From positions 1,764,001 through 1,828,000 of the forward strand of contig NC_087082.1 in assembly GCF_026151205.1 (NCBI RefSeq): 64,000 nt of DNA, in the 5' to 3' direction. The translations under genes were made by a program, and so were the position numbers. Below the pieces are notes generated by a model. That model saw only the letters and a list, made by a program, of their open reading frames with translations, made no database searches and was not told where the DNA came from. Source of the DNA: Bolinopsis microptera. Its lineage: Eukaryota; Ctenophora; Tentaculata; Lobata; Bolinopsidae. Positions 3,740-44,326 of the stretch are shown in pieces; within the stretch, counting starts at the first letter, position 1, and each line of letters starts with the position of its first letter.

Positions 3740-5410
3740 ATGAAGCAGGCAGCTGACTCTGGTCGTGAACTTGGGGAAAGGGTTTCGGCCATGAAACTTG
3801 AAAGTAGTTCCCAAAACAGCACTGCTTTATCAGAAAATACTATTGCTACACACGAAGGTATTGCTATTCAACGAAACGCACTAAGTCTTCACAAACAGAT
3901 AACCAAGTGGATGGGAACTGAAAGTAATGCTAAACCTCCCATTTTTAATGAAGTAGGAGAGAAAGGATTCCTCAAACTTGATCATGACGTTCTGCTAGGG
4001 AGCGGCAGTAACGGAACTCGTGTTTATTTAGGAACATTCCGTCAGAGTGTAACAAATGTTGAACAACTGGTAGCCATAAAGAGAATACAATATGACACAG
4101 ATGAAGAGTATATTAAAATAGACAGAGAAATTTTAACCCTGCAGAAACTGGACAATGTCAATCTGATTAAATACTTGTTTGCTGACAAAAATATTCAATT
4201 TCGTCTTATGTTTATAGCTCTAGAGTTATGCAGAGGATCTTTAATCAATGTCTTTGAACTTCGTAAAGATGTATTTGATCGCCCCTTTGTGCTACGAAAC
4301 GGATCTCCTTCAGATGATTGGTGGTTTAAAAAGCATCTACTTCTAGGAATAGCTAACGGATTAAAATATGTCCATCAAGAGGATCATGTGCACAGGGACC
4401 TAAAGCCTCAGAACATCCTTGTCCAGGGGGATGACAGCAATGTATTCGGATACAAAGCAGTCATTTGTGATTTCGAGCTGACCAGGGAATTGAAGCCTGG
4501 TAAGAGCAAACTTTCTCATGCATCTGGACTTGTCGGGACTCATGGTTGGATGGCTAAGGAGGTTCTCAATGGAGGTGATCAAACTAAAGCTTTAGATATC
4601 TTTGCTTATGGGTGCATTGTTCAATTTGTTATGTCTGAGAACAGAGATATGGGCAAAACCCATCCATTCGGACCTGATGATGACCGAAATAGAAATATCA
4701 TAAAAAGTAAAAGGTACTCATACATCAGTACTCATATTGCTGATAATAAAGGTCATGTCTATCCTGATCGTCAATCTGCATCTTTTAGTAAGAGAAATTG
4801 GGTGGGTTACAGATATCTTGGAGATGCCCTTCTAGCTGACATGCTTGTGGGTGTTTGTATATCAGAGAATATAAATGTACGCCCCAGTGCAGCTGGAATA
4901 ATTGAACATCCATTCTACTGGTCTTATGAACAACGAATGCAGTGTAACGAAAAAATGTTTAATGCATTTAAAGACAACTTCCAAAAAGTAAATATAATAT
5001 CGGTGATGGAAAAGCATTGGGAAACCCTCGGCACTCACCGCCTTTCATCATTGGTACCTGTTGCATGGGATTATTATGTTAAGTATAGAAAGATAAATGG
5101 AAAAAACGCTCCCTCGGTAGAGCTTAGTGCCAAAATCTTTAACTGTTTGATGAGAAACATTCGGAACATTCAACAACATTACAATGACGCAATTAAAATT
5201 TTGCCAGACCTTGAAAAGGTCATGAAGGGAAACGATGAATCAATGGGCCAATACTTCTTTGAGGGTGTTCCTCTATCATTTCCTGTTATATACATACACT
5301 TTCATTGGTTGCAATCACAGAGCAATAGATCGGGCGGAGAAAAGCAGGATATTTACGATGTGCAAATGGATACCCTTTATGCCATAAATAATTATCATTG
5401 TTCTTTGTAA
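3740..5410 (+). CDS. Kinase-KEN endoribonuclease, copy C1 (IRE1/RNase L-like)
   Basis: Encodes 556 residues: a protein kinase domain followed by a KEN ribonuclease domain. Visible motifs are the glycine loop LGSGSNGT (86-93), VAIK lysine (K114), HRDLKPQN (218-225), DFE in place of DFG (244-246), GTHGWMAKE in the activation segment, HPFYWS (390-395) opening the KEN domain, IRNIQQH (474-480, candidate catalytic R475 and H480) and YFFEGVP (505-511). In IRE1 and RNase L this fold is a metal-independent endoribonuclease activated by nucleotide-driven dimerisation. No ankyrin repeats, signal peptide or membrane helix is present, so a soluble protein is expected. The start is the ATG in GGTTATG, four bases after a splice acceptor; this is the only array member where that conserved ATG opens the main frame. 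The G to E change may reduce phosphotransfer. Substrate unknown. Confidence 0.9.
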   Translation: MKQAADSGRELGERVSAMKLESSSQNSTALSENTIATHEGIAIQRNALSLHKQITKWMGTESNAKPPIFNEVGEKGFLKLDHDVLLGSGSNGTRVYLGTFRQSVTNVEQLVAIKRIQYDTDEEYIKIDREILTLQKLDNVNLIKYLFADKNIQFRLMFIALELCRGSLINVFELRKDVFDRPFVLRNGSPSDDWWFKKHLLLGIANGLKYVHQEDHVHRDLKPQNILVQGDDSNVFGYKAVICDFELTRELKPGKSKLSHASGLVGTHGWMAKEVLNGGDQTKALDIFAYGCIVQFVMSENRDMGKTHPFGPDDDRNRNIIKSKRYSYISTHIADNKGHVYPDRQSASFSKRNWVGYRYLGDALLADMLVGVCISENINVRPSAAGIIEHPFYWSYEQRMQCNEKMFNAFKDNFQKVNIISVMEKHWETLGTHRLSSLVPVAWDYYVKYRKINGKNAPSVELSAKIFNCLMRNIRNIQQHYNDAIKILPDLEKVMKGNDESMGQYFFEGVPLSFPVIYIHFHWLQSQSNRSGGEKQDIYDVQMDTLYAINNYHCSL

Positions 5411-9849: not shown

Positions 9850-10000
9850 TATGTAGTGCATAATAACGTTTATTATACGTGGCAAATGTGTTGCTTTACA
9901 GGCATAGCAGGAATACTAGACACTCCTCCCTAAATGATCATAATGGGGCAGGAACCGAGAGTGCCCAATGTCATGATAATTTTACGACAAGATGTGAAAA

Positions 10001-10250
10001 TATGTGCCCATATATGGCAATATACGACAATATTTGACATTATTTGACAATATTCGACAATATACCCAATATACGACAATATACGACAATATACGACAAT
10101 ATGTGACAAGATTCGACAATAAACGACAAGATTTAGCAATATATACGACAATATAGTATGACAATATATGACAATATTTGACAATATATGACAATATACG
10201 ACATTATATTCAGACAGTATATGACAGTATACGACAAGATTGACAAAATG
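10001..10250. repeat. ACGACAATAT minisatellite upstream of copy C2
   Basis: Degenerate tandem units of about 10 bp of the type TACGACAATA and TATGACAATA. The same repeat occurs at matching distance upstream of A1 (about 14220-14420) and A2 (about 19555-19765), so it belongs to the shared upstream block. It could be part of the promoter region or simply hitch-hiking satellite. Confidence 0.8.
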
Positions 10251-10446
10251 TGACAAACCGTGGGAAAATGGGCACTCTCGGTTTCTGCCCATAATGGGCT
10301 CCAAAATACATATACAAATAAAAACAACAAAATATTGAAAATCACCGAAACTGCAATTCAAACCTATGATTATATGATAATATAATGTATCTCGATTAAA
10401 AGCAATGCAAACAAATTTTACAGGTTATGGCTTATAACTATGTTGG

Positions 10447-12165
10447 ATGAGTCGGAGGAGTTGGGAGGGTCAGATGGCAATGAGAGGACGTCTAGAGTGG
10501 GAGGACTTGGGAGGGTCAGATGAGAGGACGTCTAGAGATGAAGCTTCTGTGAGACAAAAATCAACTTCTCTGCCTACTATTACGAAAAACTTTACCGTTG
10601 ATCAATACCGAAATGAAGTCAAGCTGCGAAATTGTTTAAACCTTGAAAAGCAAATAACAAAACGGCTGGGGATCGGAAATAGAGCAAGGAGTGTTGCCTT
10701 TAAAGAAGTTGGGGAAAGAAAATTCCTTAGACTAGATAAGAACGTTCTGCTAGGGAGTGGCAGTAACGGAACTCGTGTTTATCTAGGAACATTCCGTCAG
10801 AGTGTAACTAATGATGAAAAGCTGGTAGCCATCAAAAGGACACAATATGACACTGAGGCAGAGTATAAAGCAACATACAGAGAAATTGAAAATTTACAGA
10901 GACTAGACCATTACAATTTAATCAAATACTTATGTGCTGACAAAGTCGATGAATACAATCTTATGTTTATCGCTCTCGAATTATGCGAGGGATCTTTAAT
11001 CAACGTCTTTGAACTTCGTAAAGATGTATTTGAGCGTCCCTTCATTCTTCGTAACAAAGCTCCTCCAGATGATTGGCGGTTCAAAAAGCATCTACTTCTA
11101 GGAGTAGCTAACGGATTAAATTATATCCACCAAGAGGGTCATGTCCATAGAGACCTTAAGCCGCAGAACATTCTTGTTCAGGTGGACGATAGCAACGAAT
11201 TTGGGTACAAAGCAGTTATTTGTGACTTTGAGCTGACCAGAGAGTTAAAGCTTGGCAAGACTAAACTGTCTGTTTCATCAGGAATTGTCGGAACTCATGG
11301 TTGGATGGCTAAGGAGGTTCTCAATAAAGGTGATCAAACTAAAGCTTTAGATATCTTTGCTTATGGGTGCATTATTCAATTTGTTATGTCTGAGAGCAGA
11401 GCTAAGGATATTACCCATCCATTCGGCCCTGATATTCAACGAGATAGTGCCATCATGGAAGGTAAAAGGTACTCATACATCAGTACTCATATTGCTGATA
11501 ATGAAGGTTATGTCCACCCTGATGGTCAATCTGCATCTTCTAGTAAAAGAAATTGGGTGGGTTACAGATATCTTGGAGATGCCCTTCTAGCTGACATGCT
11601 TGTGGGTGTTTGTATATCAGAGAATATAAATGTACGCCCCAGTGCAGCTGAAATAATAAAACATCCATTCTACTGGTCTTATGAACAACGAATGCAGTGT
11701 AATGAAAGAATGTTTAATGCATTTAAAGACAACTTCCAACAGGAAGATGCAATATCCGTAATGGAATCAAATTGGAAAGCCCTCGACACTCATCCCCTTT
11801 CTTTATTGGTACCTGCTGCATGGGATTATTATCTTATGCATAGAAGAATAAGCGGAAGAAAGGGTCCCTCGGTTAAACTTAGTGCTTCGATCTTTAACTG
11901 TTTAATGAGAACTATTCGGAACATTCAACAACATTATGAAGACGCAATTGGAATTTTGCCAGACCTTGATGAGGTCATGGACGGAAGCAATGAATCAATG
12001 GGCCAATACTTCTTTGAGGGTGTTCCTCTATCATTTCCTGTTATATACATAACATATCAATGGTTGCAATTACAGAGCAATAGATCGCACAAAGAAAAGC
12101 TAGATATTTACGATGTGCAAATAGAGACTCTTTTTGCCATAAAGAAGGATCATTATTCTTTGTAA
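10447..12165 (+). CDS. Kinase-KEN endoribonuclease, copy C2
   Basis: 572 residues, nearly collinear with C1 from the N-terminal helix onward. Glycine loop LGSGSNGT (102-109), VAIK K130, HRDLKPQN (234-241), DFE (260-262), HPFYWS at the KEN start, and IRNIQQH with R491 and H496 by alignment with C1. The N-terminus is odd. The ATG at 10440, matching the start used in A1/A2, opens a short frame (MLDESEELGG) that stops at 10519 because a 46-bp segment is imperfectly duplicated (TTGGGAGGGT at 10461 and 10507). The ATG at 10447 restores the frame and adds a new N-terminus starting MSRRSWEGQ. A seven-codon uORF (MAYNYVG) begins at 10428 next to the splice acceptor. Soluble RNase activated by dimerisation is inferred. 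Confidence 0.88.
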   Translation: MSRRSWEGQMAMRGRLEWEDLGGSDERTSRDEASVRQKSTSLPTITKNFTVDQYRNEVKLRNCLNLEKQITKRLGIGNRARSVAFKEVGERKFLRLDKNVLLGSGSNGTRVYLGTFRQSVTNDEKLVAIKRTQYDTEAEYKATYREIENLQRLDHYNLIKYLCADKVDEYNLMFIALELCEGSLINVFELRKDVFERPFILRNKAPPDDWRFKKHLLLGVANGLNYIHQEGHVHRDLKPQNILVQVDDSNEFGYKAVICDFELTRELKLGKTKLSVSSGIVGTHGWMAKEVLNKGDQTKALDIFAYGCIIQFVMSESRAKDITHPFGPDIQRDSAIMEGKRYSYISTHIADNEGYVHPDGQSASSSKRNWVGYRYLGDALLADMLVGVCISENINVRPSAAEIIKHPFYWSYEQRMQCNERMFNAFKDNFQQEDAISVMESNWKALDTHPLSLLVPAAWDYYLMHRRISGRKGPSVKLSASIFNCLMRTIRNIQQHYEDAIGILPDLDEVMDGSNESMGQYFFEGVPLSFPVIYITYQWLQLQSNRSHKEKLDIYDVQIETLFAIKKDHYSL

Positions 12166-13021: not shown

Positions 13022-13022
13022 C

Positions 13023-13075
13023 CGCCCCCCCCCCCCCCCCCCCCCCCCGCCCCCCCCCCCCCCCCCCCCCCCCCG
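13023..13075. repeat. Poly-C tract
   Basis: About 50 consecutive C residues with a single G near 13049. The paralogous place after C1 has only GCGGCCCC. Long homopolymers of this kind are hotspots of replication slippage and also of assembly error. Confidence 0.9.
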
Positions 13076-13402
13076 TATTATAAATGCTTATAATTTTGAC
13101 CAATTTTAAGGCCTTTTTGTTTTCTTGGAAGCAAATCATCTCTACATGTTCAGGAACCTTCATTCGGCACTATCAGCGTTTTATCTTATAGGTATAACAG
13201 TATTTAATATATTTCAAATATTTATTTCAAAGATTACTTGAAGCTGTTTACAAATTGACGGAATCTGACTGTATGACGTGTTCATATTGACTAATTAAAT
13301 TGATGATATATCGATTATTGTTTTAATTTGTAGGTTAATGTTTTGTCTAGTTCTGTTCCATCAGTATTTTTTACATGTCATTTATACAGGGAGTCTTTTA
13401 TA

Positions 13403-13693
13403 CAGGGAGTCTATAAAAAAGTAAAAAAGGCGACCAAGTGACTATTGTTAATAATTCGCCTATAACCTAATGAGTCATATGCTATGATGTTCCATTTTGT
13501 TAAAAATTTCATGATGCTTCCAAAATCATCCAGAATTAATGATATTGTAGAGGTTTGAATTAATGATGTAGAGGTTTGAATTAATGATGTAGAGGTTTGA
13601 ATTATTCACGGACTCCGGAGGTCATACCTCATATCAAACAGGTTTTGAGTTATCAACACGTATCACTTGGCCGCCTTTTTTAGACACTCAGTG
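13403..13693. mobile_element. MITE, complete copy upstream of A1
   Basis: Left end CAGGGAGTCTATAAAAAAG with GGCGACCAAGTGA; right end TCACTTGGCCGCC then TAGACACTCAGTG, an imperfect terminal inverted repeat. The first bases of the left end are duplicated (13387 and 13403). A TGATGTAGAGGTTTGAAT motif is repeated about three times inside. No transposase. Confidence 0.65.
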
Positions 13694-14219
13694 TGTTTTT
13701 GTATCAACAGTTTTAATTTTGATCAGGTATTAAATTGCTTCTTTATGAATTTTAAAATTACGTGTATAATGATTTAAAATGTTTTTCTTCTAAGTTGTGT
13801 TTTTGTGTATTTCTGAAAAATTATTCCAAAGTAATAAAAATAACGTAATTGACCAAAAAAGATAGAATGTAACAGAGGCACAACTTTAATATATTAATTG
13901 ATCTAAACATATCGGTCGGTTGGTATAATAAATTTTGTTCTTAATTGTCGGATAATAATTTTCCATCCAAACCTCAAACGTTATTGAATAATTCCACTGT
14001 ATGTTACAGTAGTCTTTGGAAGTTTGGAGCAGCATGAAATATCCCTAATACTGCCCATTCTTTGTGTACATGATGCATAATAATATTATGTAGTGCATAA
14101 TAACGTTTATTATAAGTGGCAAATGTGTTGCTTTACAGGCATAGCAGGAATACTAGACACTTCTCCCTAAATGATCATAATGGGGCAGGAACCGAGAGTG
14201 CCCAATGTCATGATAATTT

Positions 14220-14420
14220 TACGACAAGATGTGACAATATGTGCCAATATATGACAATATACGACAATATTTGATATTATATGACAATATACGACAATAT
14301 ACGACAAGATTTGGCAATATCCGACAATATAATATGACAATATATGACAATATTTGACAATATATGACAATATACGACATTATATTCAGACAGAATATGA
14401 CAGTATACGACAAGATTGAC
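14220..14420. repeat. ACGACAATAT minisatellite upstream of copy A1
   Basis: Same degenerate 10-bp units as upstream of C2 and A2, ending about 190 bp before the A1 start codon. Confidence 0.8.
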
Positions 14421-14590
14421 AAAATGTGACAAACCGTGGGAAAATGGGCACTCTCGGTTCCTGCCCATAATGGGCTCCAAATACATATAAAAATAAAAAC
14501 AACGAAATATTGAAAATCACCGAAACTGCAATTCAAACCTATGATATTATAATGTATCATGATTAAAAGCAATGTAAACAAATTTTACAG

Positions 14591-14636
14591 GTTATGGCTT
14601 ATAACTATAATGTCGGATGAGGTGGAGGAATTGGGA
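14591..14636 (+). promoter_or_regulatory. Conserved splice acceptor and short uORF in the A1 leader
   Basis: TTTTACAG ends at 14590 and is followed by GTTATGGCTTATAAC. The first ATG (14593) opens an eight-codon frame, MAYNYNVG, that stops at TGA overlapping the main start region, and the main ATG is at 14610. Equivalent acceptor-ATG pairs precede C1, C2, B1, A2 and B3. A leader uORF of this kind would lower translation and could make it stress-responsive; that is inference. Confidence 0.5.
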
Positions 14637-16313
14637 GGGTCAGATGACAGTGAGAGGACGTCTAGAGATCATGAAGCTTCTGTGAGACAACTATCAGCTT
14701 CTCAGCCTACTATTACGAAAAACATTACTGTTGATCAATACCGAAATGAAGTCAAGCTGCGAAATTGTTCAAACCTTGAGAAGCAAATAACGAAACGGCT
14801 GGGGATCGGAAATAGAGCAGGTAATGTTGCCTTTAAAGAAGTTGGGGAAAGGAAAGTCCTTAAACTAGATAAGAACGTTCTGCTAGGGAGTGGCAGTAAC
14901 GGAACTCGTGTTTATTTAGGAACGTTCCGACAGAGTGTAACTAATGATGAAAAGCTGGTGGCAATCAAAAGGATCCAATATGATACTGAGGCAGAGTATA
15001 AAGCAACGTACCGAGAAGTTGCCACTCTACAAAAACTTAATCATTCCAATGTGATCAAATATTTATTCGCTGACAACAATGATGAATTCAATCTTATGTT
15101 TATCGCTCTTGAGTTATGCAGAGGATCTTTAATCAATATATTTGAACTCCGCAAAGATGTTTTTGAATGTCCCTTTATACTCAAAAATCGAGCTCCTGCT
15201 AACGATTGGTGGTTTAAAAAACATTTGCTTCTTGGAATTGCAAACGGTCTAGATTACATCCATCAACAGGGTCATGTTCATAGAGACCTTAAACCACAAA
15301 ACATTCTTGTTCAGGGAGATGACAGCAACATCTTTGGTTACAAAGCAGTAATATGTGACTTCGAGCTCGCCAAAGAAATGGAGGCAGGGAAGTCTAAATT
15401 GTCTGTGTCTCAGGGGATCGTTGGTACCCAGGGCTGGATGGCTAAGGAGGTGCTTGCCGGGGGAGCACAAACTAAAGCCTTAGATGTGTTTGCTTACGGG
15501 TGTATAGTTCAATTTGTTCTGGTGGAGAACAGAGATAAGCATGCAATCCATCCATTTGGAGCAGACATCCACCGGGATAATGCCATCATGGAAAGTAAGC
15601 GGTCTTCATACATTAGTACACATATTGCTGATATAAATGGCTCAATCCGTACTACTGGTCAATCTTATTATGTCGGTGAATTACTGCAGGGTAGAAGTGG
15701 GCTAGGATATGAATATCTTGGTGATGCAATTATAGCAGACTTACTCGTCAGTGTTTGCATATCAGGGGATATAACTGTCCGACCTTCGGCTCCTGAGCTG
15801 TTGCTCCATCCATTCTTCTGGTCGTATGAGAAGAGAATCCAGAGCAATGAAATGATGTTTAATTTGTATAAACACGACTTTCAAAGACACGACATAGTGT
15901 CGTTGATGGAGAAGAATTGGAGAATCCTCAACACTTATACCTATTCCTCATTAATACCTGATGCATGGGAATATTATGTTTCTCATAGAAAAGCAACTAA
16001 AGGAAAGGTACCTTCCTCAAGACTGAGTAGTTCTCTCTTCAACTGTTTGATGAGGCTGATTCGAAACCTTCAGCAGCATTACGAAGAAGCAATTGCTCTG
16101 TCACCTGAACTTGAAGTTGCTTTAGATGGGAACTCAGAGTCTCTGGGTAAATATTTTTTCGAAGGAGTGCCCTTGGCATTTCCAGTAATATACATCTACT
16201 TGTTTCAATACCAATGTAATTCTCCGGAGAAAACCATTGAAGTAAGACGGAAGATATATCAGCAGCAACTCTCCACTCTAATGACTCTCAAAAGCAATCA
16301 TCGTGCATTGTAA
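14610..16313 (+). CDS. Kinase-KEN endoribonuclease, copy A1
   Basis: 567 residues from the ATG at 14610 (MSDEVEELGG). An in-frame ATG at 14559 lies upstream of the probable splice acceptor at 14590 and is disfavoured. Glycine loop LGSGSNGT (92-99), VAIK K120, HRDLKPQN (224-231), DFE (250-252), GTQGWMAKE, HPFFWS, IRNLQQH near 484-490 and YFFEGVP mark a complete kinase plus KEN unit. The IRNLQQH signature is close to RNase L (IRNLGEH), with the arginine and histidine that are essential there. The acidic, serine-rich N-terminal 40 residues are low-complexity. A2 is a very close paralogue. No sensor domain is visible; activator and RNA target are unknown. Confidence 0.9.
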   Translation: MSDEVEELGGSDDSERTSRDHEASVRQLSASQPTITKNITVDQYRNEVKLRNCSNLEKQITKRLGIGNRAGNVAFKEVGERKVLKLDKNVLLGSGSNGTRVYLGTFRQSVTNDEKLVAIKRIQYDTEAEYKATYREVATLQKLNHSNVIKYLFADNNDEFNLMFIALELCRGSLINIFELRKDVFECPFILKNRAPANDWWFKKHLLLGIANGLDYIHQQGHVHRDLKPQNILVQGDDSNIFGYKAVICDFELAKEMEAGKSKLSVSQGIVGTQGWMAKEVLAGGAQTKALDVFAYGCIVQFVLVENRDKHAIHPFGADIHRDNAIMESKRSSYISTHIADINGSIRTTGQSYYVGELLQGRSGLGYEYLGDAIIADLLVSVCISGDITVRPSAPELLLHPFFWSYEKRIQSNEMMFNLYKHDFQRHDIVSLMEKNWRILNTYTYSSLIPDAWEYYVSHRKATKGKVPSSRLSSSLFNCLMRLIRNLQQHYEEAIALSPELEVALDGNSESLGKYFFEGVPLAFPVIYIYLFQYQCNSPEKTIEVRRKIYQQQLSTLMTLKSNHRAL

Positions 16314-17356
16314 ACGTGGGTGCGGACATAATTTTAGCAGTATATATTTTTAAGAAGGGCATTTAAGAATAGCAGATAACAAATAAATTATTATTACTAT
16401 TCATTCATTCAAAGTTTTGAATTCCGGAGTATTATTATTATAGTTTAGATATTTTTTGAATTGTGTGATTATGCTGATTAACATAATCATGATAATGTTA
16501 TTACTAAATAAAGAAAAGCACTCAGTTTTTTGATTGTCTGGGTTTTTTAATTTGACTTTAAATATTTGTATTGAATGTAATGTTCTTTTTATAGTTGCTC
16601 AGCTCACACATTTTTGCTTCAGTTATTTCAGATAATGTATCCGATAAATTGTTAAAAGTTATCAGTGTTATCTAGAACTTTTTAAGTGCTATTTCTTCAA
16701 TCTTTTTTTTGTCATAATATTTTCATTTAAGTTGAATAGCCATGTTTCCTTTTTGTGATTATCGGGCATTTGTATTGTTTTAAGTTAATGACCAGTATTA
16801 TACCTGTTTAGACACGGTGTTAAATATTTTATTATATACTGAAGTCAGGGATTAATTCTTTTATAATCATTATGTTAGAGTTCTCATTTATTTATCTGAA
16901 TATCTATTACATTGCCCGAAGATGTTTGATTTTATTGAAAGATTATTGTATTATAACTGTATTTAAATAATTATAGATTTCATCGTGGTTATTTTAAGTT
17001 TTAAAAACTTCTTGGTTGATCAGATGATTTAATTCTCATAATTCTAATTCTAATTTAATGACTGAACAATTGTCTTTTCTCTCAAGCCTTTCTTCGAATA
17101 ATCTTCAATTTTCGAATTTTCGAGTACAGATATTCGCCGAGATCAGAGTTGATTAGTACATTCAAATTGAAAGTAACTTGGACTTGGAATATATTAGTGA
17201 TTTTGTGATAATTTTATGTCCCATGATGCGAATGACCCATAATTATAATCAACAATGTTTATTTACGATTTCTGTCCACAGGTTATGGATAAGAAGTCAG
17301 AAAGTGTTTCCACCTAGCCTGTCATGTTCTAGCTGTTTAACAGTGCCCTGTCCACA
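16314..17356. other. A1-B1 intergenic region (paralogue at 30048-31031)
   Basis: AT-rich. Starts with GGACATAATTTTAGCAGTA, also found after pseudogene A3 (30057), and ends with the B1 leader: a splice acceptor GTCCACAG at 17273-17280, then GTTATGG with a short uORF (MDKKSESVST) before the main ATG. No other gene is seen. The shared layout shows that A and B genes were duplicated as a pair. Confidence 0.6.
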
Positions 17357-18439
17357 ATGGCTGCTGGAAATGCTCTCAACCTGCAGAGGCAAATTGCTAA
17401 ATGGCTTGGGACTGGACCGAATGCGACCGATGTGAAGTTTAAAGACGTTGGTGAGGACAAACGCCTTACGTTTGATAAAGGCAAACTTTTAGGAAGTGGT
17501 AGTAATGGAACTCGTGTTTATCTGGGAACATTTCGCCGGCCAGTTACAAATGAGCCGCAGTTAGTGGCCATAAAGCATGTTCAATACAACAGTGATGTAG
17601 AATATAGAAACACATATCGTGAGGTGGAGAATCTGCAGCAACTGAATCATCCAAATGTGGTACACTATTTGTATGCTGATAAGTGTGAAGATTATGACAT
17701 CATGTTCATTGCCCTTGAGCTTTGCAGAGGTTCTTTAGTTGATATGTTCGTTCACAAACGTGATGTCTTCAAAAGACAATTCACTCTAAGGGATAATATT
17801 ATATCGTGTGACCATTGGGAATTCAAGAAAGATCTCTTGTTCGGTATAGCTCATGGACTAAACTATGTGCACAGTCAAGGCTATATACATAGGGACCTTA
17901 AACCACAGAATATACTAGTACGTGATGATAATGACAGCCGGTATGGTTATAAAGCTGTAATCTGTGATTTTGAGTTATCAAGAAAAATAAAAGATGGGAA
18001 GGCGAAATTGTCTGTGTCACAAGCTGCTGTTGGTACTCATGGTTGGATGGCCAGAGAGGTACTTGCTGGGGCAAAGAAATTGACTCGATCTATTGATGTG
18101 TTTGCATATGGATGTATTGTGCATTATGTGTTGTCTGAGAATAGGAATGAGCAAGATATGCATCCTTTTGGATCTGATCTGCATAGAGACATGAATATAC
18201 GGAAATCAAAGCGCTCCTCATATATAAGTTCGACTTTAAACCTGCAAGAACGCCGTCACAACTATTTACCTATAGGTTATGCATATCTGGGGGATTCCAT
18301 ACTGGCTGACATGCTTGTCGATACCTGCATTAGTGGTGTTATCATTGCCCGTCCTCTTGCCCATGAGATATTGAAACACCCCCCCCCCCCCCCCCCCCCC
18401 CCCCGTATTATAAATGCTTATAATTTTGACCAATTTTAA
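17357..18439 (+). pseudogene. Kinase-KEN copy B1, truncated: kinase only, KEN lost at poly-C
   Basis: Starts MAAGNALNLQRQ with a good context (CCACAATGG). Glycine loop LGSGSNGT (45-52), VAIK K73, HRDLKPQN (178-185) and DFE (204-206) are intact, and the kinase C-lobe runs to LKHP. There the expected HPFFWS is replaced by a poly-C run read as prolines, followed by 12 residues of intergenic sequence. The whole KEN ribonuclease domain is missing. The poly-C is followed by the same DNA found upstream of A1. Either recombination at a C-run destroyed the gene or the assembly collapsed here. If real, the product would be a kinase lacking RNase, conceivably a regulator of its paralogues. Confidence 0.8.
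18379..18404. repeat. Poly-C tract at the B1 breakpoint
   Basis: About 26 C residues directly joining kinase coding sequence (GAAACAC) to GTATTATAAATGC, the same sequence that follows the poly-C at 13075. Confidence 0.9.
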
Positions 18440-18730
18440 GGCCTTTTTGTTTTCTTGGAAGCAAATCATCTCTACATGTTCAGGAACCTTCATTCGGCAC
18501 TATCAGCGTTTTATCTTATAGGTATAACAGTATTTAATATATTTCAAATATTTATTTCAAAGATTACTTGAAGCTGTTTACAAATTGACGGAATCTGACT
18601 GTATGACGTGTTCATATTGACTAATTAAATTGATGATATATCGATTATTGTTTTAATTTGTAGGTTAATGTTTTGTCTAGTTCTGTTCCATCAGTATTTT
18701 TTACATGTCATTTATACAGGGAGTCTTTTA

Positions 18731-19021
18731 TACAGGGAGTCTATAAAAAAGTAAAAAAGGCGACCAAGTGACTATTGTTAATAATTCGCCTATAACCTAA
18801 TGAGTCATATGCTATGATGTTCCATTTTGTTAAAAATTTCATGATGCTTCCAAAATCATCCAGAATTAATGATATTGTAGAGGTTTGAATTAATGATGTA
18901 GAGGTTTGAATTAATGATGTAGAGGTTTGAATTATTCACGGACTCCGGAGGTCATACCTCATATCAAACAGGTTTTGAGTTATCAACACGTATCACTTGG
19001 CCGCCTTTTTTAGACACTCAG
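18731..19021. mobile_element. MITE, copy upstream of A2
   Basis: Same element as 13403-13693 at a constant offset of 5328 bp; it moved with the segmental duplication, not by transposition. Confidence 0.65.
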
Positions 19022-19554
19022 TGTGTTTTTGTATCAACAGTTTTAATTTTGATCAGGTATTAAATTGCTTCTTTATGAATTTTAAAATTACGTGTATAAT
19101 GATTTAAAATGTTTTTCTTCTAAGTTGTGTTTTTGTGTATTTCTGAAAAATTATTCCAAAGTAATAAAAATAACGTAATTGACCAAAAAAGATAGAATGT
19201 AACAGAGGCACAACTTTAATATATTAATTGATCTAAACATATCGGTCGGTTGGTATAATAAATTTTGTTCTTAATTGTCGGATAATAATTTTCCATCCAA
19301 ACCTCAAACGTTATTGAATAATTCCACTGTATGTTACAGTAGTCTTTGGAAGTTTGGAGCAGCATGAAATATCCCTAATACTGCCCATTCTTTGTGTACA
19401 TGATGCATAATAATATTATGTAGTGCATAATAACGTTTATTATAAGTGGCAAATGTGTTGCTTTACAGGCATAGCAGGAATACTAGACACTTCTCCCTAA
19501 ATGATCATAATGGGGCAGGAACCGAGAGTGCCCAATGTCATGATAATTTTACGA

Positions 19555-19765: not shown

Positions 19766-19944
19766 AAACCGTGGGAAAATGGGCACTCTCGGTTCCTGCC
19801 CATAATGGGCTCCAAATACATATAAAAATAAAAACAACGAAATATTGAAAATCACCGAAACTGCAATTCAAACCTATGATATTATAATGTATCATGATTA
19901 AAAGCAATGTAAACAAATTTTACAGGTTATGGCTTATAACTATA

Positions 19945-29587: not shown

Positions 29588-30047
29588 CGACTTTCAAAGA
29601 CACGACATAGTGTCGTTGATGGAGAAGAATTGGAGAATCCTTAACACTTATAAATCAAGAGGCTTGCATATACCTATTCCTCATTAATACCTGATGCATG
29701 GGAATACTATGTCTCTCATAGAAAAGCAACTAAAGGAAAGGTACCTTCCTCAAGACTTAGTAGTTCTCTCTTCAACTGTTTGATGAGGCTGATTCGAAAC
29801 CTTCAGCAGCATTACGAAGAAGCAATTGCTCTGTCGCCTGAACTTGAAGTTGCTTTAGATGGGAACTCAGAGTCTCTGGGTAAATAAATTTTTCGAAGGA
29901 GTGCCCTTGGCATTTCCAGTAATATACATCTACTTGTTTCAATACCAATGTAATTCTCCGGAGAAAACCATTGAAGTAAGACGGAAGATCTATCAGCAGC
30001 AACTCTCCACTCTAATGAATCTCAAGAGTAATCATCGTGCATTGTAA
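29588..30047 (+). pseudogene. Kinase-KEN pseudogene A3 (KEN domain only)
   Basis: Matches the last part of A1/A2 from DFQRHDIVSLMEKNWRILNTY to the stop codon. The kinase domain is absent. Within the remnant there is an 18-bp insertion around 29653-29670 with a stop shortly after, and a changed run at 29882 (GGTAAATAAATTTTTCG) that shifts the frame after SLG. The C-terminus (FFEGVPLAFPVIYIYLFQYQ) remains readable in another frame. It precedes B3 just as A1 precedes B1, so it is the decayed A member of a third A-B pair. Confidence 0.9.
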
Positions 30048-31031
30048 ACTTGAGCGGGACATAATTTTAGCAGTAGACACATTTTAGAGGGGCATTTATA
30101 ATTCATTTATTCAACGTTTAAACAAATTTCAATGTATCATTATTAGGTATAGTTTAGATATCATCTGATATTGGCTTACAAATATAATTTTATCAAAAAA
30201 TAAATAAATACAGAGAATTAATCATCCAGTTTTTTGTTTGTTTTGTGTCTTCAATTATTTCAGATTATTTATTCGATGAATTGTTCAATTGTCAGTGTTA
30301 TATTTCGTTGATTGATAAATTAATTAATGTATGAGTAATATGATATAATATATCTATTTCTGAAAAAGAAATTGAAAGAAGAAGTCATAGAGCTTTTTAA
30401 GTTTAGGTACTATTTTTTCACTAATAAAGAGCCATTTCTTCCTGAAATATTCGGTCATCTGCCGTCTTGTCTTTGTCATTTTGTCATGTGATTTAATTAG
30501 CCATGTTTCTTCTTTGTGATAATCGGGAATTTATATCATTTTTCGTAGTGATTAATGACTAGGTATTAGACACAGTGTTTTTTTAAACTAAAGTCAAGGA
30601 TTAATTCTTTTAACCATTTTATTGTATTAATTTTTTATTTAAGTTCTTTCAAACTATTTATTTATCTGAATATCTATTACATTGTTCAAAAATTTTGGAT
30701 TTTATCGAAAAACGGTTGTATTATTACTGTACTATATTTATAGATTTCATCCATGAGACTTCTTGGTTAATCAGATGTTTTACTGACTGAACAATTGTCT
30801 TTTCTTCTTAGCATTTCTTAAAATAATCTTCAATCCTCAATTAAATATCGACCGAGAGATAATCAGTACATTTAAACATTGAAAATAACTTGAAAATGAT
30901 CATTTTATATCTCATGATGCGACTGACTCATAATCATAATCAATCATGTTTATTTACGATTTCTATCCACAGGTTATGGTCTCCACCGTCTTCTAGTTTC
31001 TGACACCAAGTATTCTACTGCTCTGTCCACA
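30048..31031. other. A3-B3 intergenic region and B3 leader
   Basis: Homologue of the A1-B1 spacer (16314-17356). Near the end, ATCCACAG at 30966-30973 is followed by GTTATGG and a uORF of six codons (MVSTVF), then the B3 start. No other gene seen. Confidence 0.6.
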
Positions 31032-32561
31032 ATGGCTACTGAAAATGCTCTGAACCTGCAGAGGCAAATTGTTAAATGGGTTGGGACTGGAACGACTGCA
31101 ACCGATGTGAACTTCAAAGACGTTGGTGAGGACAATCGCCTGAAGTTTGATAAAGGAAAACTTTTAGGGACTGGAAGTAACGGAACTCGTGTTTATCTGG
31201 GAACCTTTCGCCAACCACTTACAAATGAGCATCAATTGGTGGCATTAAAGCAAGTTATAAACAGTAATGATGACTATAAAAAGAACTATCGAGAGGTTGA
31301 GAATCTCCAGCAACTGAATCATCCCAATGTTGTACGATATTTTTATGCTGATAAGTGTGAAGATTATGACATCATGTTCATTGCGCTTGAACTTTGCAGA
31401 GGTTCTCTTGTGGACATGTTTGTCCACAAACATGATGTCTTTAAAAGGCCATTCACTCTAAGGGATAATATATCTTGTGACCATTGGGGATTCAAGAAAG
31501 ATCTCTTGTTCGGTATAGCTGGTGGTCTTAATTATATTCACAGTCAAGGCTTTCTACATAGGGACCTTAAACCTCAGAATATACTTGTACGTGATGATAG
31601 TGAGAACCGTTATGGCTATAAAGCTGTTATCTGTGATTTAGAGCTTTCAAGGAAGATGAAGGATGGAAAGGCGAAATTGTCTGTGTCACAAGCTGCTGTT
31701 GGCACTCATGGTTGGATGGCCAGAGAGGTACTTAGTGGGTCAATGAAGTTGACTCCATCTATTGACGTGTTTGCTTATGGATGTATTGTCCATTATGTGC
31801 TGTCTGAGGGACGAAATAAGCAGCAAATCCATCCATTTGGATCTGATGAGCACAGAAACAGTTTTATAAAGAAAGCAAAAAGATACTCGTATATAAGCTC
31901 GACTTTAAACCGGCCACATGACGACATGTTCTATTCTCCTCTAGATTACGATTACCTGGGAGACTCCATATTGGCTGACATGCTTGTCGACACCTGCATA
32001 AGTGGTGCTATCAGTTCACGTCCTAACACAACTGAGTTATTGAAACACCCGTTTTTTTGGTCATATAGTGAGAGAATAAGGTGTAATGAACAATTTTTCA
32101 ACACTTTCAAAGATCGATATCAAAGCGAAAGCATGATATCATCCATGGAAAATACATGGAGCAGCTTGGAGAGTTTTGCACATGGGTGTCCTATCCCTGA
32201 GGTTTTGGAATATTATAATTTGTACAGAGAAAGACTTAAAAGAAAAAGGAAAAGACTCTCTATTTCGGCTTCATCAGAAATTTTCAACTGTTTGATGCGA
32301 CTCATCCGCAATTTGCAGCAGCACTACCACGATGCTGTTGAATTTCATCCACCTCTGAGTTCCTGTCTTGTTTCTGGTGATGATGAGACATTGGGCCGAT
32401 ATTTTTTTGAACGAGTCCCTATGTTATTCCCCGTCATTTACATTTTTACCAGATTGTATGAAGATAGTAGCGTCGGCAATTATTCATCCAGGGAACTAAA
32501 AGTTCAAAAGTTACTCAAAAATACCCTGAAACACCTGCACACCACTCATCCAGCACTTTGA
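31032..32561 (+). CDS. Kinase-KEN endoribonuclease, copy B3
   Basis: 509 residues, start MATENALNLQRQ in CCACAATGG. Glycine loop LGTGSNGT (45-52), VALK K73, HRDLKPQN (176-183). The DFG position is DLE (202-204), so both F and G are changed while the metal-binding aspartate stays. GTHGWMARE follows. KEN part: HPFFWS, a basic stretch KRKRKR (about 403-409), IRNLQQH and YFFERVP. Complete frame. DLE suggests further loss of kinase catalysis, in line with RNase L, where the kinase domain binds nucleotide but has lost phosphotransfer. RNase function is predicted from the conserved arginine and histidine. Confidence 0.9.
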   Translation: MATENALNLQRQIVKWVGTGTTATDVNFKDVGEDNRLKFDKGKLLGTGSNGTRVYLGTFRQPLTNEHQLVALKQVINSNDDYKKNYREVENLQQLNHPNVVRYFYADKCEDYDIMFIALELCRGSLVDMFVHKHDVFKRPFTLRDNISCDHWGFKKDLLFGIAGGLNYIHSQGFLHRDLKPQNILVRDDSENRYGYKAVICDLELSRKMKDGKAKLSVSQAAVGTHGWMAREVLSGSMKLTPSIDVFAYGCIVHYVLSEGRNKQQIHPFGSDEHRNSFIKKAKRYSYISSTLNRPHDDMFYSPLDYDYLGDSILADMLVDTCISGAISSRPNTTELLKHPFFWSYSERIRCNEQFFNTFKDRYQSESMISSMENTWSSLESFAHGCPIPEVLEYYNLYRERLKRKRKRLSISASSEIFNCLMRLIRNLQQHYHDAVEFHPPLSSCLVSGDDETLGRYFFERVPMLFPVIYIFTRLYEDSSVGNYSSRELKVQKLLKNTLKHLHTTHPAL

Positions 32562-35079: not shown

Positions 35080-35643
35080 ATTATAAAACTAAATTCAACA
35101 CGTGCAACAAATATATCGCAACAATAGAAATAGATGCCATTAGGTCAAGCTATGGCATTAATATATTTCCACACCCAATACCAAACTTATTCTTTAGCCC
35201 ATGCCTCTTTACCACAGATAAGTATATTTTACTAAGACGATCCCGTCTAAAACCCAACTCAATTAAATCATCAGTAAATTTCAAAACCCTATCAGAAAAA
35301 GCAACAACGTTATTACAAATCCTAGAATATCTCACAACCTGTGAACAGTACGTGCCATATAATACACTACTAGCTTGATTACTCATCAAAGGTTGAAACT
35401 TAACCACTTTAAAACCAAACTTATCCCTTTTATCATAAACTCTACAAGAAAACTTCCCCTCTCTATTTATCGAAATATCAAGATCTAATACATTGGCGGC
35501 ACTATCTACTTCATTTTCCTTATTAAGAGTAAGTGAGTCTGGATATATTAACTTAAAATATTCCTCTAAGTAACCATCAGAGTTAAGGGTAGTAATATCA
35601 TCTATAAGTCTAAATGTATGACGGTTACCTACAATCTACATAT
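35080..35643 (-). pseudogene. Reverse transcriptase C-terminal fragment
   Basis: Minus-strand frame from about 35643: NRHTFRLIDDITTL (the RT catalytic box, normally YxDD, here LIDD), then IYPDSLTL, LDLDISI, VYDKRDKFGFKV, MSNQASSVLYGTYCSQVVRY and SRIC. This pattern is known from reverse transcriptases of Penelope-like or related elements in marine animals. The frame stays open to about 35150, but the N-terminal two thirds of the RT are missing. Family assignment uncertain. Confidence 0.6.
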
Positions 35644-35649
35644 TTGACG

Positions 35650-38982: not shown

Positions 38983-41900
38983 ATGCTGCTAAAGTGCCAA
39001 AAGGAGCCCTTTCTGCAACAGCTCACTTCCAAAGTCGTTTCTTGTAATGAGGTATTTTATATATTTCTACTAATTTAGCTTGGAAATCTCGTAAGTTTTA
39101 TTAAAAACATAGTTGTATCTGGTTGTCCCAGTTTTTATATGTAACCCTTATGTTTCAGGTAAAGAAGGGAAAGAAAAAGCACTACGAAGTGGTGTTAGAA
39201 GACACAATACTGTTTGCTGAAGGAGGAGGACAGCCATGCGATCACGGTGTTTTGAGAATAGTCCCCTCTGACGTCACTGATGTAAATAAACTGTCTTTGC
39301 AAAAGTAAGTGTAAACAGATCTGAAATCGTGTCGTGGGCTTGTGGGTGTCATCTACGTAGCGCGCAAGTACTCCGATATGTTGCAAGTTTATCACAAGTA
39401 ACAAAATATTGTGTCACGTGACTAATTCTGAATATCGGATTACTATGCGCGATCGGCTCAGCGGCTGCGATCGAGTATACAAATTCACATCCGTATAACT
39501 ATAATAATATCTTTTATGTAACTCTTGGCTGGCATAAATTCCATTCACATACTGCTAAAATAACCCTCTTGTTGTTATGTATGTGGGCAATACATGACCT
39601 CTCGTAGTTAGGTAGTTTTTACTGAGCTCCATTTTCATTAATGTTTACCCAACAAGTTCAGAGTATTGGGAAACACAGCAGGACCAGGTTTACCACTTCT
39701 CATCTGATCCCACCTATCTGACTCAGTGTAAAAGTGGTGGACGTACAGAGACGCGATGGTAGAGCAGTACATTTCACTGATAAGAGAGTGGGTGAGGGGA
39801 GTGAGGTTAATGTGGAGGTTAACTGGAAACGGAGATACGATCACATGCAGCAGCACACAGGTTGGGTTTTGTTTTTATATTGTCTTTAGTTGGTGTGTGC
39901 TGATTAATATTGAAGAATGTATATGCAACATTAATTAATACCGTCGGATGCTTCTACAATGTTATTATGAATATTAAACCTCAAAATATTTTGGTGATTA
40001 TTAGTTTTACCATTCACTATGAGATCATTGAAATTGCTATTCATGAACTTGGTTAAAGTTTAAACATCGCCCATATTCATTGGTTTTTGCAGGACAACAT
40101 TTACTAAGCGCTATCGCGGAGCAGGAGCCATACAAATATAACACTGTATCATGGAACTTAGGTTAGTTCATCAGATACTAAGGTTTTATGTCACCAGTAA
40201 TCTCAATTGTTTGTATAACTCAGTATGATTGTTCTTCTATTTGGCTTATTCTTGTTCGGGATTGTTATTAGTTCTTTGAAGACTTTTTGCCGTGTTTCCT
40301 TTATAAAAGTACAAACAATCTCTGATGTCTGCCAATTAAGTTAGAACAATAATTTCAGGTTTAACAATATCACATGTTGAGCTCAAAACACCATCTTTAT
40401 CTGACGAGATCAAGCTGGAGATCGAACAGAAAGTCAACAGGTTCGTCTTCGATTATGTTTTAAATTTATCTCTGATTAAACTTATCAGTCCGGTGATGAT
40501 CAAGTTATAATCTAATGATCCTAGAGAATATCCACCACACGTCCCACCTCTTGTTTTAATAATTCTGTGGCTTTTGTAATCGTATTTTTAAGTGCTGACA
40601 GCGTATAAAAAATAAAATGTTTATCCCCCGACATCTAGACTCAGGATTGTTCTAAAAAGTATTATTTTTACAATGTACATAGATTAAAACAGCAAGACAA
40701 TACTTTGTAATAATATGCAAATTAACTCAGTAAGAAAATATGCTAATTGCAGGCCGCAATTGTAGCCACATGTGTGATACTAATTCTCCATTTGACAGGC
40801 AACTAACGATCTCACTTCAACAATATGTGGTCTCATGATGGAACTGTACTTTTTTTAGTTAGTCACGCTTCATTTTATATCAACAATCCCTGTCATTTCT
40901 TCTCACTTTTTTCTGGATCAGTTTCTGTTGAACATCTTTGGACACTTTTGTCGAGTTTGTTGAGTGCAGAGACAGTAATATGCGTATGGATGCTGTGGGT
41001 AATTCAGGAAAGGTCGCTATCAATCGTAACGGAATATTGGGGGAAGGCAGTAACGGGACTTGCGTTTACAAAGGAACATTCGAGAAAACGGTTCAAGTGG
41101 CCGTTAAAAGAATGGTATATTTCACAACCACTGACCTGAAAGTGATTAACAATGAAGTTACTATGCTGAAGAAGCTGGATCACCCTAATATAATCCGATA
41201 CAAGCTGTTCGACAAAGACAAGGACTTCCTCTACATTGTCCTGGACTTGTGTGACGCATCTCTGACTGAATGTATTAAAAAGCGAACCTTGAACCCTTCA
41301 TATATGTACATGCCCGGTGAAATGAAAGCAAAGTTCAAGATTAATATTCTGAAGGACATTTTAAGCGGCTTAGAATACCTCCACAAAATGGATGTTATTC
41401 ACCGAGACCTAAAGCCCCAAAATGTTCTTATCAAAAAAAGCAAAACCACCGAGTATGGTGTTACTGCTGTGATAACTGACTTTGGACTCAGTCTTGAAAT
41501 TAAGGAGGATCAAACTCACGTGACTGCTACAGAGGCGGGTACCAAGGGGTGGAAACCAAAAGAAGTACTTGGGAAGGGTAAAAAATATTTCAAGAAATCT
41601 ATGGATATTTTTGCGTTTGGATGTGTTGCACAGTTTGTACTTTCTCAATCTACCGACGCATCTAATCGTTACGTTCACCCTTTCGGTGAGGAATTGTGCA
41701 GGGAGCGAAATATCCACTTTGGTAAAAGGGTGGCATTCCTAGATGATCCTAGAAAATCGTTAGATCCTAGAAAATCGTTGGATCGTGAGGTGGATTTGCT
41801 GGGAGATATAATGGTGAACAGCTGTGTCAGCAATGACCCAAAACTACGTCCTGAAGCTATGGAGCTTTTAGATCATCCTTTGTTCTGGAGCTACACGGAT

Positions 41901-44326
41901 AAACTTCACTTTGTGGAGAAAGTATTCAATGATTACAAAGACAAATTTGAGAGCGATGCTGTTAAAAGTTTGGAAGACAACTGGAAGAAATATAAGCCAA
42001 CAGCAGTCGAAGAGAATATTCCTGAAGCTTGGGGATACCATTTGTTCTGTCGAAAGCTTGCCAAACAATCCAAACCAAACACCAAATCTCTCTTCAACGC
42101 TGTTCTCCGGAACATAAGGAACATCCAACAACACTGCAGAGAGGCGGTAGCACGGTACAAAGAGCCCCACAAACAACCAAACTCAGAGGCTTTCACTATT
42201 CTAGAGGAAGTTTTGGGAGATTGCTCGGATGAAGACATTGGACGATATTTCTTTTCTAGAATTCCAGTACTGATTCCAATCGTGTACCTGTCTCTTTACC
42301 TTCACGCTAGAGAAAATAGAGTTCTGCAGCGGTACTACAAGAATGCTGATACTGATAAAACGGTTGCGGAGGGAAAGACTAAATCAGGGTGGAGTACTCT
42401 GGACAAGCTCATGACACGCAGCTCTAGATCATCTACCCCGTCTAGTTCCAGTAGAAGCAGATCCAACTCTAAGAGTTAGAGGACAGATCATCTACCCCGT
42501 CTAGTTCAAGTAGAAGCAGATCCAACTCTAAGAGTTAGAGGACAGATCATCTACCCCGTCTAGTTCAAGTAGAAGCAGATCCAACTCTAAGAGTTAGAGG
42601 ACATGATTATCGTTTTTAAGTTTAAACGGGGGTTACAGAGTACAGACTTTAGATGGATACCGCTTGTTGCAAGCTTCACTTGAAATATCCTTGATAAGTT
42701 ACTTTCATATCTCATGTGATTATGTTGACTGATTTAACCTTTCGTTTCAGTCGTATATTGCTATTTATGATTTTACCAGGGTTTAAACAAAAGCGATCTG
42801 ATTTCCAAATTTAGTCGATTTTATACTTTCATTTTCTCTTTGAATTGGATTTTTTTATTAAAGAAATTCTTAATAATTTCTGAAATCGAACCAAATTGTG
42901 TTTTAATTGGTCGCTTTTTAGAGTTAATTTCTGTCCTAAAAACTCACTTCTTTCCGAAAACTCTTCCCCAATTTCTAAAGAAGCGCAAAAGCTCTGACGT
43001 TTTCCATCCACAGTTTGATCCAAGCAGGGACACCGGTAATAACAAAGGTTTACGATAGTAAAGATGATGATGCGTTATCCTCCGCGCATACCAGAGGACT
43101 ACCTGCCGACCATTCTGGTGAGTTACATTCCTACTTACTTGTGTGATTTCTACCATTACTAGCGTGTTACGTCTGAGATTTGTTTATAAAGAGTTATCAC
43201 TGTATTTTGTACCTTCCAGTGCTCATATAGTTCGATAGATTTTCGTTGGTTACGGGTTTCTCTTTAAATGTTGAACATCTAGAAAGTTTTTAATAATCAT
43301 TGTTGCGTATCAGGGCCGGTTAGAGTTATAGAGATAAAAGGTGTTGACGAAAACATGTGTTGTGGTACTCATCTGAGCTCGCTCGCTCAAGTTAGTGAAA
43401 TTTCAGATCTCAGTTTTAAGAAATGAAATTTATGATTTAAACATGTGCCTACAGTAGGGGCAGACAAAGCGCTAATATTCTCGTGGGTTCAGACGGCAGC
43501 CCGTATAAAGAATTGCGTTAGGATACTTTTTGTATACTCTAATCCGAACTGATAAGATAAATTTCTACATCAAACAGACGAAATTTAACCATGTTTTTCC
43601 CTCCCGCCCAGCTGCAGATGATAAAACTGCTTCACACAGAATCTAAGAAAGGAAACACCTTGCTCTATTTCGTGTGTGGAGATAGAGTGATCAATACCCT
43701 CCAGAGTGCGTTAGAGGTTCAACACAAACTAAACGTCTTGCTCTCGTCTCCGCCTGAAAAGTTCGCTCCCATGGTCAGTTGAGTGTGTTGGGGCTTTTTA
43801 GTTTTGGATATTTAAGCTTGCGAAAATATTAGGTGGTTTTTAATCTTGTCAGTTGATGCAAGCTTTGTTTCCTATTAATTAATTTCGGTGCAAATATCCC
43901 TCAAATGACTAAACCTCCCATTCTCAGGTAGAAAAGCTGAATAAAGATAACCGCACATCACGCAAGACCGCTGAGAAACTATCAGAAGAGCTAGCCATCC
44001 TTCACGCCGCCTCCCTCCTCCAATCCTCGGAGCGGGTCCTCACCATGCACCGACCATCTCCAGACGAGAAGTACAGCCTGACTCTACAACGAGACCTACG
44101 AGACACGTGCGAGAAGAGACTGCTGCTGCTCACTATGGGGGAGCTGGGTGGAGCTCAGTTCGTGTTTAGGGGACCTGTGGATGTGGTGGATAAGTTGGGG
44201 AAGGGGCTCGCGCAGAAACTTGGGGGTAAGGGAGGAGGGAGGGATGGGAAATTCCAGGGGAAGTTTAGTGATCTGGCTCTTTTAGAGAGTGCTGTGCAAT
44301 ATCTTCGGGACAACTTTGAGTCATGA
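38983..44326 (+). CDS. AARSD1: AARSD1, alanyl-tRNA editing protein (9 coding exons)
   Basis: Trans-acting editing protein that hydrolyses mischarged Ser-tRNA(Ala) in the cytosol. Coding exons: 38983-39051, 39159-39304, 39727-39860, 40093-40161, 40359-40440, 43014-43117, 43314-43390, 43612-43773, 43928-44326. All introns are GT/AG, the phases agree, and the sum is 1242 nt, or 413 residues plus stop, close to the usual length of about 412. Starts MLLKCQKEPFLQQLTSKVV. EGGGQPCDHG is the conserved loop of the AlaX fold. Zinc ligands are visible as HMQQH (H111, H115) and CCGTH (C217, H221). The C-terminus GGKGGGRDGKFQGK matches the DHHA1-like glycine-rich motif. Intron 5 (40441-43013) contains kinase gene D on the same strand. 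A fragment of exons 1-2 lies at 28906. Confidence 0.93.
40980..42479 (+). CDS. Kinase-KEN endoribonuclease, copy D, nested in AARSD1 intron 5
   Basis: 499 residues from the ATG at 40980 (MRMDAVGNSG). A possible splice acceptor TTGAGTGCAG lies just upstream (40968), so a 5' untranslated exon may exist. Glycine loop LGEGSNGT (20-27), AVK K43, HRDLKPQN, and a canonical DFG in ITDFGLSLE, unlike every array copy. GTKGWKPKE, HPLFWS, IRNIQQH and YFFSRIP show a complete KEN domain. A six-residue unit DPRKSL is duplicated before the end of the C-lobe. The tail is Ser/Arg-rich (SSRSSTPSSSSRSRSNSKS). It is the most divergent and the most IRE1-like in its kinase motif, so it may be the ancestral type. 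No intron interrupts the main frame. Confidence 0.9.
   Translation: MRMDAVGNSGKVAINRNGILGEGSNGTCVYKGTFEKTVQVAVKRMVYFTTTDLKVINNEVTMLKKLDHPNIIRYKLFDKDKDFLYIVLDLCDASLTECIKKRTLNPSYMYMPGEMKAKFKINILKDILSGLEYLHKMDVIHRDLKPQNVLIKKSKTTEYGVTAVITDFGLSLEIKEDQTHVTATEAGTKGWKPKEVLGKGKKYFKKSMDIFAFGCVAQFVLSQSTDASNRYVHPFGEELCRERNIHFGKRVAFLDDPRKSLDPRKSLDREVDLLGDIMVNSCVSNDPKLRPEAMELLDHPLFWSYTDKLHFVEKVFNDYKDKFESDAVKSLEDNWKKYKPTAVEENIPEAWGYHLFCRKLAKQSKPNTKSLFNAVLRNIRNIQQHCREAVARYKEPHKQPNSEAFTILEEVLGDCSDEDIGRYFFSRIPVLIPIVYLSLYLHARENRVLQRYYKNADTDKTVAEGKTKSGWSTLDKLMTRSSRSSTPSSSSRSRSNSKS
42426..42602 (+). repeat. Three 59-bp repeats spanning the stop codon of gene D
   Basis: TCTACCCCGTCTAGTTC begins at 42432, 42491 and 42550. 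The first copy encodes the Ser/Arg-rich tail and the TAG stop; the other two are in the 3' untranslated region. Since 59 is not a multiple of three, read-through would change frame in each copy. Confidence 0.9.

Follow-up and report, generated by a model that had tools for sequence, protein, structure and literature searches.

Tandem kinase-KEN genes in the ctenophore Bolinopsis microptera: a candidate array of soluble endoribonucleases without a built-in sensor

How is a KEN ribonuclease controlled when the gene encoding it seems to carry no sensor? IRE1 and RNase L, the best-known animal enzymes combining a protein kinase with a KEN RNase domain, are each tied to a sensor of their own. The question is raised by a stretch of 64,000 nucleotides from the ctenophore Bolinopsis microptera (RefSeq assembly GCF_026151205.1, contig NC_087082.1; C11:1764001-1828000 of the 264.65-Mb assembly), which we call the window. 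Stop-to-stop reading of the window, together with tblastn searches using the encoded proteins, identifies nine kinase-KEN loci, all on the + strand within 3740-42479 (table 1): seven intact genes (g1-g3 and g5-g8) with single coding exons of 499-572 aa, g4, which is truncated past the kinase, and one fragment containing only KEN. The tblastn search found no additional copies on either strand of the window at E 1e-3, and the inventory agrees with that of a first-pass annotation of the same DNA, which had reported seven genes, one truncated gene and one pseudogene on the same strand. We consider it reasonably probable that the locus is a tandem array of soluble (cytosolic or nuclear) kinase-KEN endoribonucleases, corresponding to the effector half of IRE1 and RNase L without a built-in sensor.

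The architecture of a kinase followed by KEN, as first annotated, is confirmed. The Pfam kinase profile matches all eight frames and PF06479, the KEN profile, matches six of the eight at E<=0.01, so that the HMM search on which the first-pass annotation had staked its reading does find a KEN domain. Predicted structure models of g3 and g8 place a KEN fold C-terminal to the kinase, and the predicted fold of the whole unit is that of IRE1; the activation loop carries Ser/Thr, again as in IRE1. The catalytic motif R-N-xxx-H is retained in every one of the seven intact genes. Across an alignment of 35 rows (A2, in which g2, g5 and g6 are present as database rows), the Arg, Asn and His of KEN are kept in 30, 34 and 30 rows, respectively, with one row gapped. 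On the kinase side, the β3 Lys and αC Glu are kept in 33 of the 35 rows (two gapped), the HRD Asp in 34 and the DFG Asp in all 35, whereas the DFG glycine, the remaining mark of an active kinase, is not maintained: its position holds Gly in 14 rows and Glu in 15, with Glu in g1-g3 and g5-g7, and Gly in g8. The larger subfamily is therefore characterized by an altered DFG with the other kinase motifs otherwise kept.

In phylogenetic terms, the array genes do not belong to either of the known enzymes. An unrooted tree of 59 rows, including the seven window genes and 24 homologues, places all of these on one side of a branch with 100/100 support and a long stem of 0.84. IRE1 is separate, its 19 rows being joined by a single plant protein (98/96), and the five RNase L rows cluster on their own (100/99). 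The family splits into a g8-like group of 10 rows and a g1-g7-like group of 21 rows, each with 100/99 support. Three sequences were left out since no kinase start was found (P0128, P0024, P0028), and P0020, P0005, P0009, P0240 and P0241 were also not entered; P0001, P0003 and P0011 are window genes already in the tree, P0263 was re-cut at the kinase, and P0133, P0037 and P0243 were shortened at the C-terminus. In a second tree with three more rows, a gene lying upstream of the window (C11:1759351-1761030; KEN 34.9 bits, over the cut-off) and a gene of contig C5 stay with the family (98/96), the support for IRE1 drops to 89/62, and a gene of contig C3 forms a very long branch of unsure placement. 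In both unrooted trees, no family member falls inside the IRE1 or the RNase L branch. The comparison with IRE1 and RNase L that the first-pass annotation had proposed thus sets the array genes apart from both, and supports, at the level of sequence, a distinct family. Its members among the matches listed (up to 120 for each of three protein searches) come from ena, jgi or lgn contigs, and none of them carries a name.

Does each gene nevertheless have a sensor? Hydropathy in the window proteins peaks at 1.40-1.64, always within the kinase or KEN part, while three of four IRE1 controls exceed 2.2; within the coding exons, hydropathy gives no transmembrane segment ahead of the kinase. Searched by tblastn with the luminal regions of eight IRE1 proteins and the ankyrin-bearing N-termini of three RNase L proteins, the window and its 50-kb flanks on both sides gave no match at E<=1; the single match of these queries, at E 0.7, lies on contig C5. 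A kinase control in the same search recovers all seven intact genes together with g4 and the gene upstream of the window. The earlier statement that the coding exons encode no sensor therefore holds. A sensor could still be encoded further upstream, by exons not seen here that are spliced to every copy, which would make these genes ordinary IRE1-like or RNase L-like receptors. We regard this as improbable. An upstream exon may exist, given that g1-g7 are each preceded, 3 to 75 nt ahead of the ATG, by the acceptor-like AG/GTTATG (AG/ATCATG in g6), in the wider context CAG/GTTATGG (TAG/ATCATGG in g6); no AG/GTTATG site is present before g8. On the + strand of the window, the string AGGTTATG is found 10 times, in six cases before genes; the - strand has none. 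The reading frame behind the shared site is closed in g2, g4 and g6, and shows three different offsets in g1, g3/g5 and g7. In a second cluster of family genes on C11, the offsets read by hand are 2 for the g3-type gene and 0 for the g7-type gene, versus 1 in g3 and 2 in g7. Since a duplicated coding junction should keep its phase, the exon joined at this site would most simply be 5' untranslated. The splice-phase comparison thus argues against luminal or transmembrane exons, which the first-pass annotation had named as fatal to its reading, insofar as they would be joined at the shared site. That homologues are listed as short proteins points the same way, weakly, as these are contig predictions. 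A 10-bp GACAATATAT repeat lies directly upstream of g2, g3 and g5 (9986-10256, 14223-14432 and 19553-19767), marking a common 5' flank.

Several observations weigh against a sensorless array of active RNases. The shared acceptor-like sites fail a 75%-pyrimidine filter, which lists other sites before g6, g7 and g8; those before g6 and g7 are nearer to the ATG than the shared sites, and an upstream coding exon might be joined via another acceptor. Among the 16 homologues tested for hydropathy, P0016 carries a hydrophobic stretch at its N-terminus (2.31) and four more show kinase-internal peaks of 1.85-2.06, so that the scale does not separate sharply. The Pfam KEN score exceeds the curated cut-off only in g8; six of the seven intact genes are below it, g5 without a row. 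With another residue in place of the DFG glycine in 21 of the 35 aligned rows, the kinase activity of the larger subfamily is uncertain. The KEN catalytic residues are altered in five homologues (P0018, P0019, P0125, P0126, P0128), KEN diverges faster than the kinase in all four pairs compared, and in g1-g2 the KEN dN of 0.148 against a dS of 0.225 indicates weak constraint. The altered residues and the faster divergence of KEN would also fit kinase signalling proteins in which KEN is only a structural or RNA-binding tail. This we find rather unlikely, because R-N-xxx-H is intact in all seven genes while six of the seven have lost the DFG glycine; moreover, a divergent gene on contig C3 retains R-N-xxx-H despite reading HRN and DFW in place of HRD and DFG (by eye), and is perhaps a pseudokinase-KEN. 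It is the first of two adjoining divergent KEN-kinase genes at C3:6492158-6496488 (L007), the second having been picked up solely through a tblastn search with its neighbour (45%).

Table 1. Coordinates of the kinase-KEN loci, duplicate segments and acceptor-like sites in the window
Feature	Position	Strand	Description
g1	3740-5410	+	kinase+KEN, 556 aa, DFE, RNIQQH
g2	10447-12165	+	kinase+KEN, 572 aa, DFE, RNIQQH
g3	14610-16313	+	kinase+KEN, 567 aa from chosen ATG, frame open further 5'; structure model m98841575a2dc
g4	17357-18439	+	truncated, kinase only; enters poly-C tract 18379-18404
g5	19945-21654	+	kinase+KEN, 569 aa; 98% identity to g3; RNLQQH present, no Pfam KEN row
g6	24743-26299	+	kinase+KEN, 518 aa, DFE, RNLQQH
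Pseudogene fragment	29589-30044	+	KEN portion of g3-type gene
g7	31032-32561	+	kinase+KEN, 509 aa, DLE, RNLQQH
g8	40986-42479	+	kinase+KEN, second subfamily, DFG, RNIQQH; ATG 40980 or 40986; structure model m2a0a3ff43324
Recent duplicate segment, copy 1	13050-16315	+	98.0% to 18380-21656; starts in poly-C 13025-13074
Recent duplicate segment, copy 2	18380-21656	+	starts in poly-C 18379-18404, inside g4
Acceptor-like AG/GTTATG before g1	3735-3736	+	offset 0 to ATG, open
Acceptor-like AG/GTTATG before g2	10422-10423	+	frame closed by stop
Acceptor-like AG/GTTATG before g3	14589-14590	+	offset 1, open
Acceptor-like AG/GTTATG before g4	17280-17281	+	closed
Acceptor-like AG/GTTATG before g5	19924-19925	+	offset 1, open
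Acceptor-like AG/ATCATG before g6	24681-24682	+	closed
Acceptor-like AG/GTTATG before g7	30971-30972	+	offset 2, open

How did the array grow? Self-comparison of the window yields the two recent duplicate segments of table 1, and the tandem expansion noted at first pass is evident from these and from the series of loci itself. The segment 29588-30098, containing the KEN fragment, shares 92% identity with the end of g3 and stands before g7 as g3 stands before g4, and 16701-18381 matches 30465-32050 with 76% identity; the duplicated unit was thus probably a pair of one g3-type and one g4/g7-type gene. The poly-C junctions of the recent segments may be assembly artefacts. We considered g4 as a functional kinase-only variant and rejected it: It ends in the poly-C duplication junction, and an intact g7-type homologue (P0010) exists elsewhere. 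At the other end of the array, the Ser/Arg-rich tail of g8 is encoded by a 59-bp tandem repeat (42426-42611) that includes the stop codon, and the length of this tail may differ between alleles. Of 28 gene pairs compared, nine have unsaturated dS, and their dN/dS values (0.06 for g3-g5, 0.42 for g1-g2, 0.29 for g4-g7 and 0.205-0.263 for the other six) are all below 0.43, showing that the array genes are under purifying selection.

The family extends beyond the window, with at least the members given below. The genome search with PF06479 is insensitive, as the window's own genes are not among its matches. C11 carries at least five more long frames of 512-589 aa. Four of that length form the second cluster (C11:1437949-1462590), with identities of 98% to g8, 89% to g3 and, for the last two, 77% and only 38% to g7; all four have R-N-xxx-H, and the g7-type frame lacks the [CSTI]D[FLW] motif. 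Other members or relatives lie on C5 (one, whose kinase begins in a different frame or exon), C2 (two frames), C3 (two) and at C11:2209-2213 kb, on the - strand of which tandem units of ~1.48 kb join a partial kinase-KEN frame to another frame (L005, L006) that we take to resemble ribosomal protein S16. Equal listed sizes of the source contigs of P0005, P0123 and P0125 (381,469), and likewise of P0013, P0124 and P0126 (1,759,158), suggest that both subfamilies are linked elsewhere too. Among viral contigs there is one match, with 30% identity over ~100 kinase residues (L001). Single-exon genes of the family have multiplied by duplication, both in tandem and as larger segments, the manner in which gene arrays for conflict or stress response often grow.

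Single coding exons, in a genome where the conserved S6 kinase P0298 (Oscarella) appears on C3 as matches of only 47-56 aa (61-79% identity), could suggest that these are mostly decaying duplicates, such as retrocopies, without function; the window's truncated copy and its fragment, and broken or split copies elsewhere in the genome, would fit. We hold this to be quite unlikely: The seven window frames and the five long C11 frames outside have kept their length, dN/dS remains below 0.43 in the nine measured pairs, and the catalytic residues are retained. The S6 kinase result also indicates that short conserved exons can be detected, even if this kinase is probably better conserved than IRE1. 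No conventional IRE1 was detected in the genome within the reach of the following searches. The IRE1 query P0021 (Em0017g559a, presumably an Ephydatia protein) gave 56 matches, all from residue 374 on, and among the 55 of 154 candidates scored none exceeded 42% identity or fell in the luminal part; KEN segments taken from P0021 and from carp IRE1 (P0022) had no match in the genome, in a search without control for such segments.

If the array genes are sensorless RNases, could they be the missing effectors of an animal 2-5A (OAS) pathway, activated by the nucleotides that OAS makes, or by related ones, without the help of ankyrin repeats? In RNase L, sensing of 2-5A relies mainly on the ankyrin repeats, and these were not found near the array. 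The genome does contain two neighbouring OAS-like genes at C1:15746-15753 kb (-), with long single frames of 609 and 1019 aa (L032, L033) that are over the Pfam cut-offs for OAS1_C and NTP_transf_2 and show GS and D-x-D motifs (by eye); compared with solved structures, one of the two frames matches OAS2 best (6.3e-18), and also OAS1 and OAS3. A 2018 survey recovered OAS from four sponges and eight further lower Metazoa, and RNase L from none of the twelve (PMC6307210); another article reports 2',5'-linked oligonucleotides in sponges and calls the roles of sponge OAS speculative (PMC2852836). The OAS genes (C1) are unlinked to the arrays (C11), and that a single genome has both families is weakly suggestive of a connection. 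We treat such a pathway as a doubtful proposition. Slightly more doubtful is the wider notion that animal soluble KEN RNases, independent of IRE1 and RNase L, form a multigene, RNA-cleaving arsenal for defence and the so far missing effector of an ancient OAS/oligonucleotide second-messenger pathway wherever RNase L is lacking in animals.

Returning to the reading of a soluble, sensorless array, how new would it be? With IRE1 (ERN1/ERN2; yeast Ire1) the genes share the kinase-KEN order, the predicted fold, R-N-xxx-H and the Ser/Thr of the activation loop, while differing in having no luminal domain or transmembrane segment found, in their own long-stemmed branch, and in being multicopy single-exon genes with DFG often changed to DFE. 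RNase L is itself a soluble kinase-KEN enzyme; it belongs to a separate branch, its ankyrin repeats have no counterpart found near the array, and its fish rows read DFG (by eye), unlike g1-g7. The claim of the first-pass annotation that no described system matches was too strong. Arabidopsis IRE1C is a kinase-KEN gene whose product has no sensor domain, and sensor-lacking IRE1 occurs also in some other Brassicaceae (PMC6788458); in the part of that article considered here, these are plant IRE1 genes, one or two in two named Arabidopsis species, with a developmental role, and a tandem array is not mentioned. A survey of HEPN domains reports lineage-specific KEN expansions in Oikopleura and monocots (PMC3710099), an independent multiplication of KEN which the relevant passage describes as separate from an N-terminal kinase, whereas kinase and KEN are fused in our array. 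Short kinase-KEN proteins of plants (Morus P0028, Eucalyptus P0136), soft coral (Xenia P0052) and fish (P0160) resemble the array genes in that the listed sequence has no luminal or ankyrin part, but may be partial gene models; P0136 groups with plant IRE1, P0052 with soft-coral and ENA KEN kinases and P0160 with RNase L, P0028 being outside the tree. Among the titles and abstract openings listed in searches of open-licence PMC literature, none describes a separate family of fused, sensorless kinase-KEN genes in arrays, PMC3710099 being nearest. The novelty would thus lie in that separate family, sensor-lacking IRE1 and KEN expansions being known.

The remainder of the window is rich in repeats. 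By eye, a Ty3/gypsy-like retroelement occupies 51924-60355, with a 2006-aa frame at 53181-59201 (-) and 689-bp direct repeats (51924-52612 and 59667-60355) whose 99.9% identity makes the insertion probably recent. Frames at 46529-47747 contain a 42-bp tandem repeat (47213-47622, 9.8 copies, 99%) encoding the 14-aa unit QEEVPNCIRQPSTL; a related 46-bp satellite forms two arrays, 48162-48635 and 61451-62449 (92-94%, blastn), the second between inverted copies (60763-61452 and 62467-63178) that are 95% identical. The frames 22173-23183, 35150-35635 and 26946-27596, all on the - strand, look like retrotransposon or zinc-finger sequences by eye; the first and last have no Pfam match. Rfam and tRNA scans of the window gave no match.

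The kinase-KEN unit of IRE1 and RNase L works by nucleotide-linked pairing. By analogy, nucleotide binding with phosphorylation of the activation loop, or a ligand, would let the kinase domains of the array proteins pair, and pairing would assemble the KEN active site, which would then cleave RNA. The trigger would act in trans, whether through induction of expression, through a partner protein or through a small ligand, and the duplicative expansion would be that of an array for conflict or stress response; we infer that the products may be soluble in vivo and may have the immune or stress role that the first-pass annotation had suggested. A sensorless, multicopy branch of this kind raises the question of what keeps a KEN RNase in check when it has no sensor of its own, and its genes are concrete candidates for the RNA-cleaving step behind invertebrate OAS. 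Both the sensorless control and the link to OAS could be addressed with one recombinant protein.
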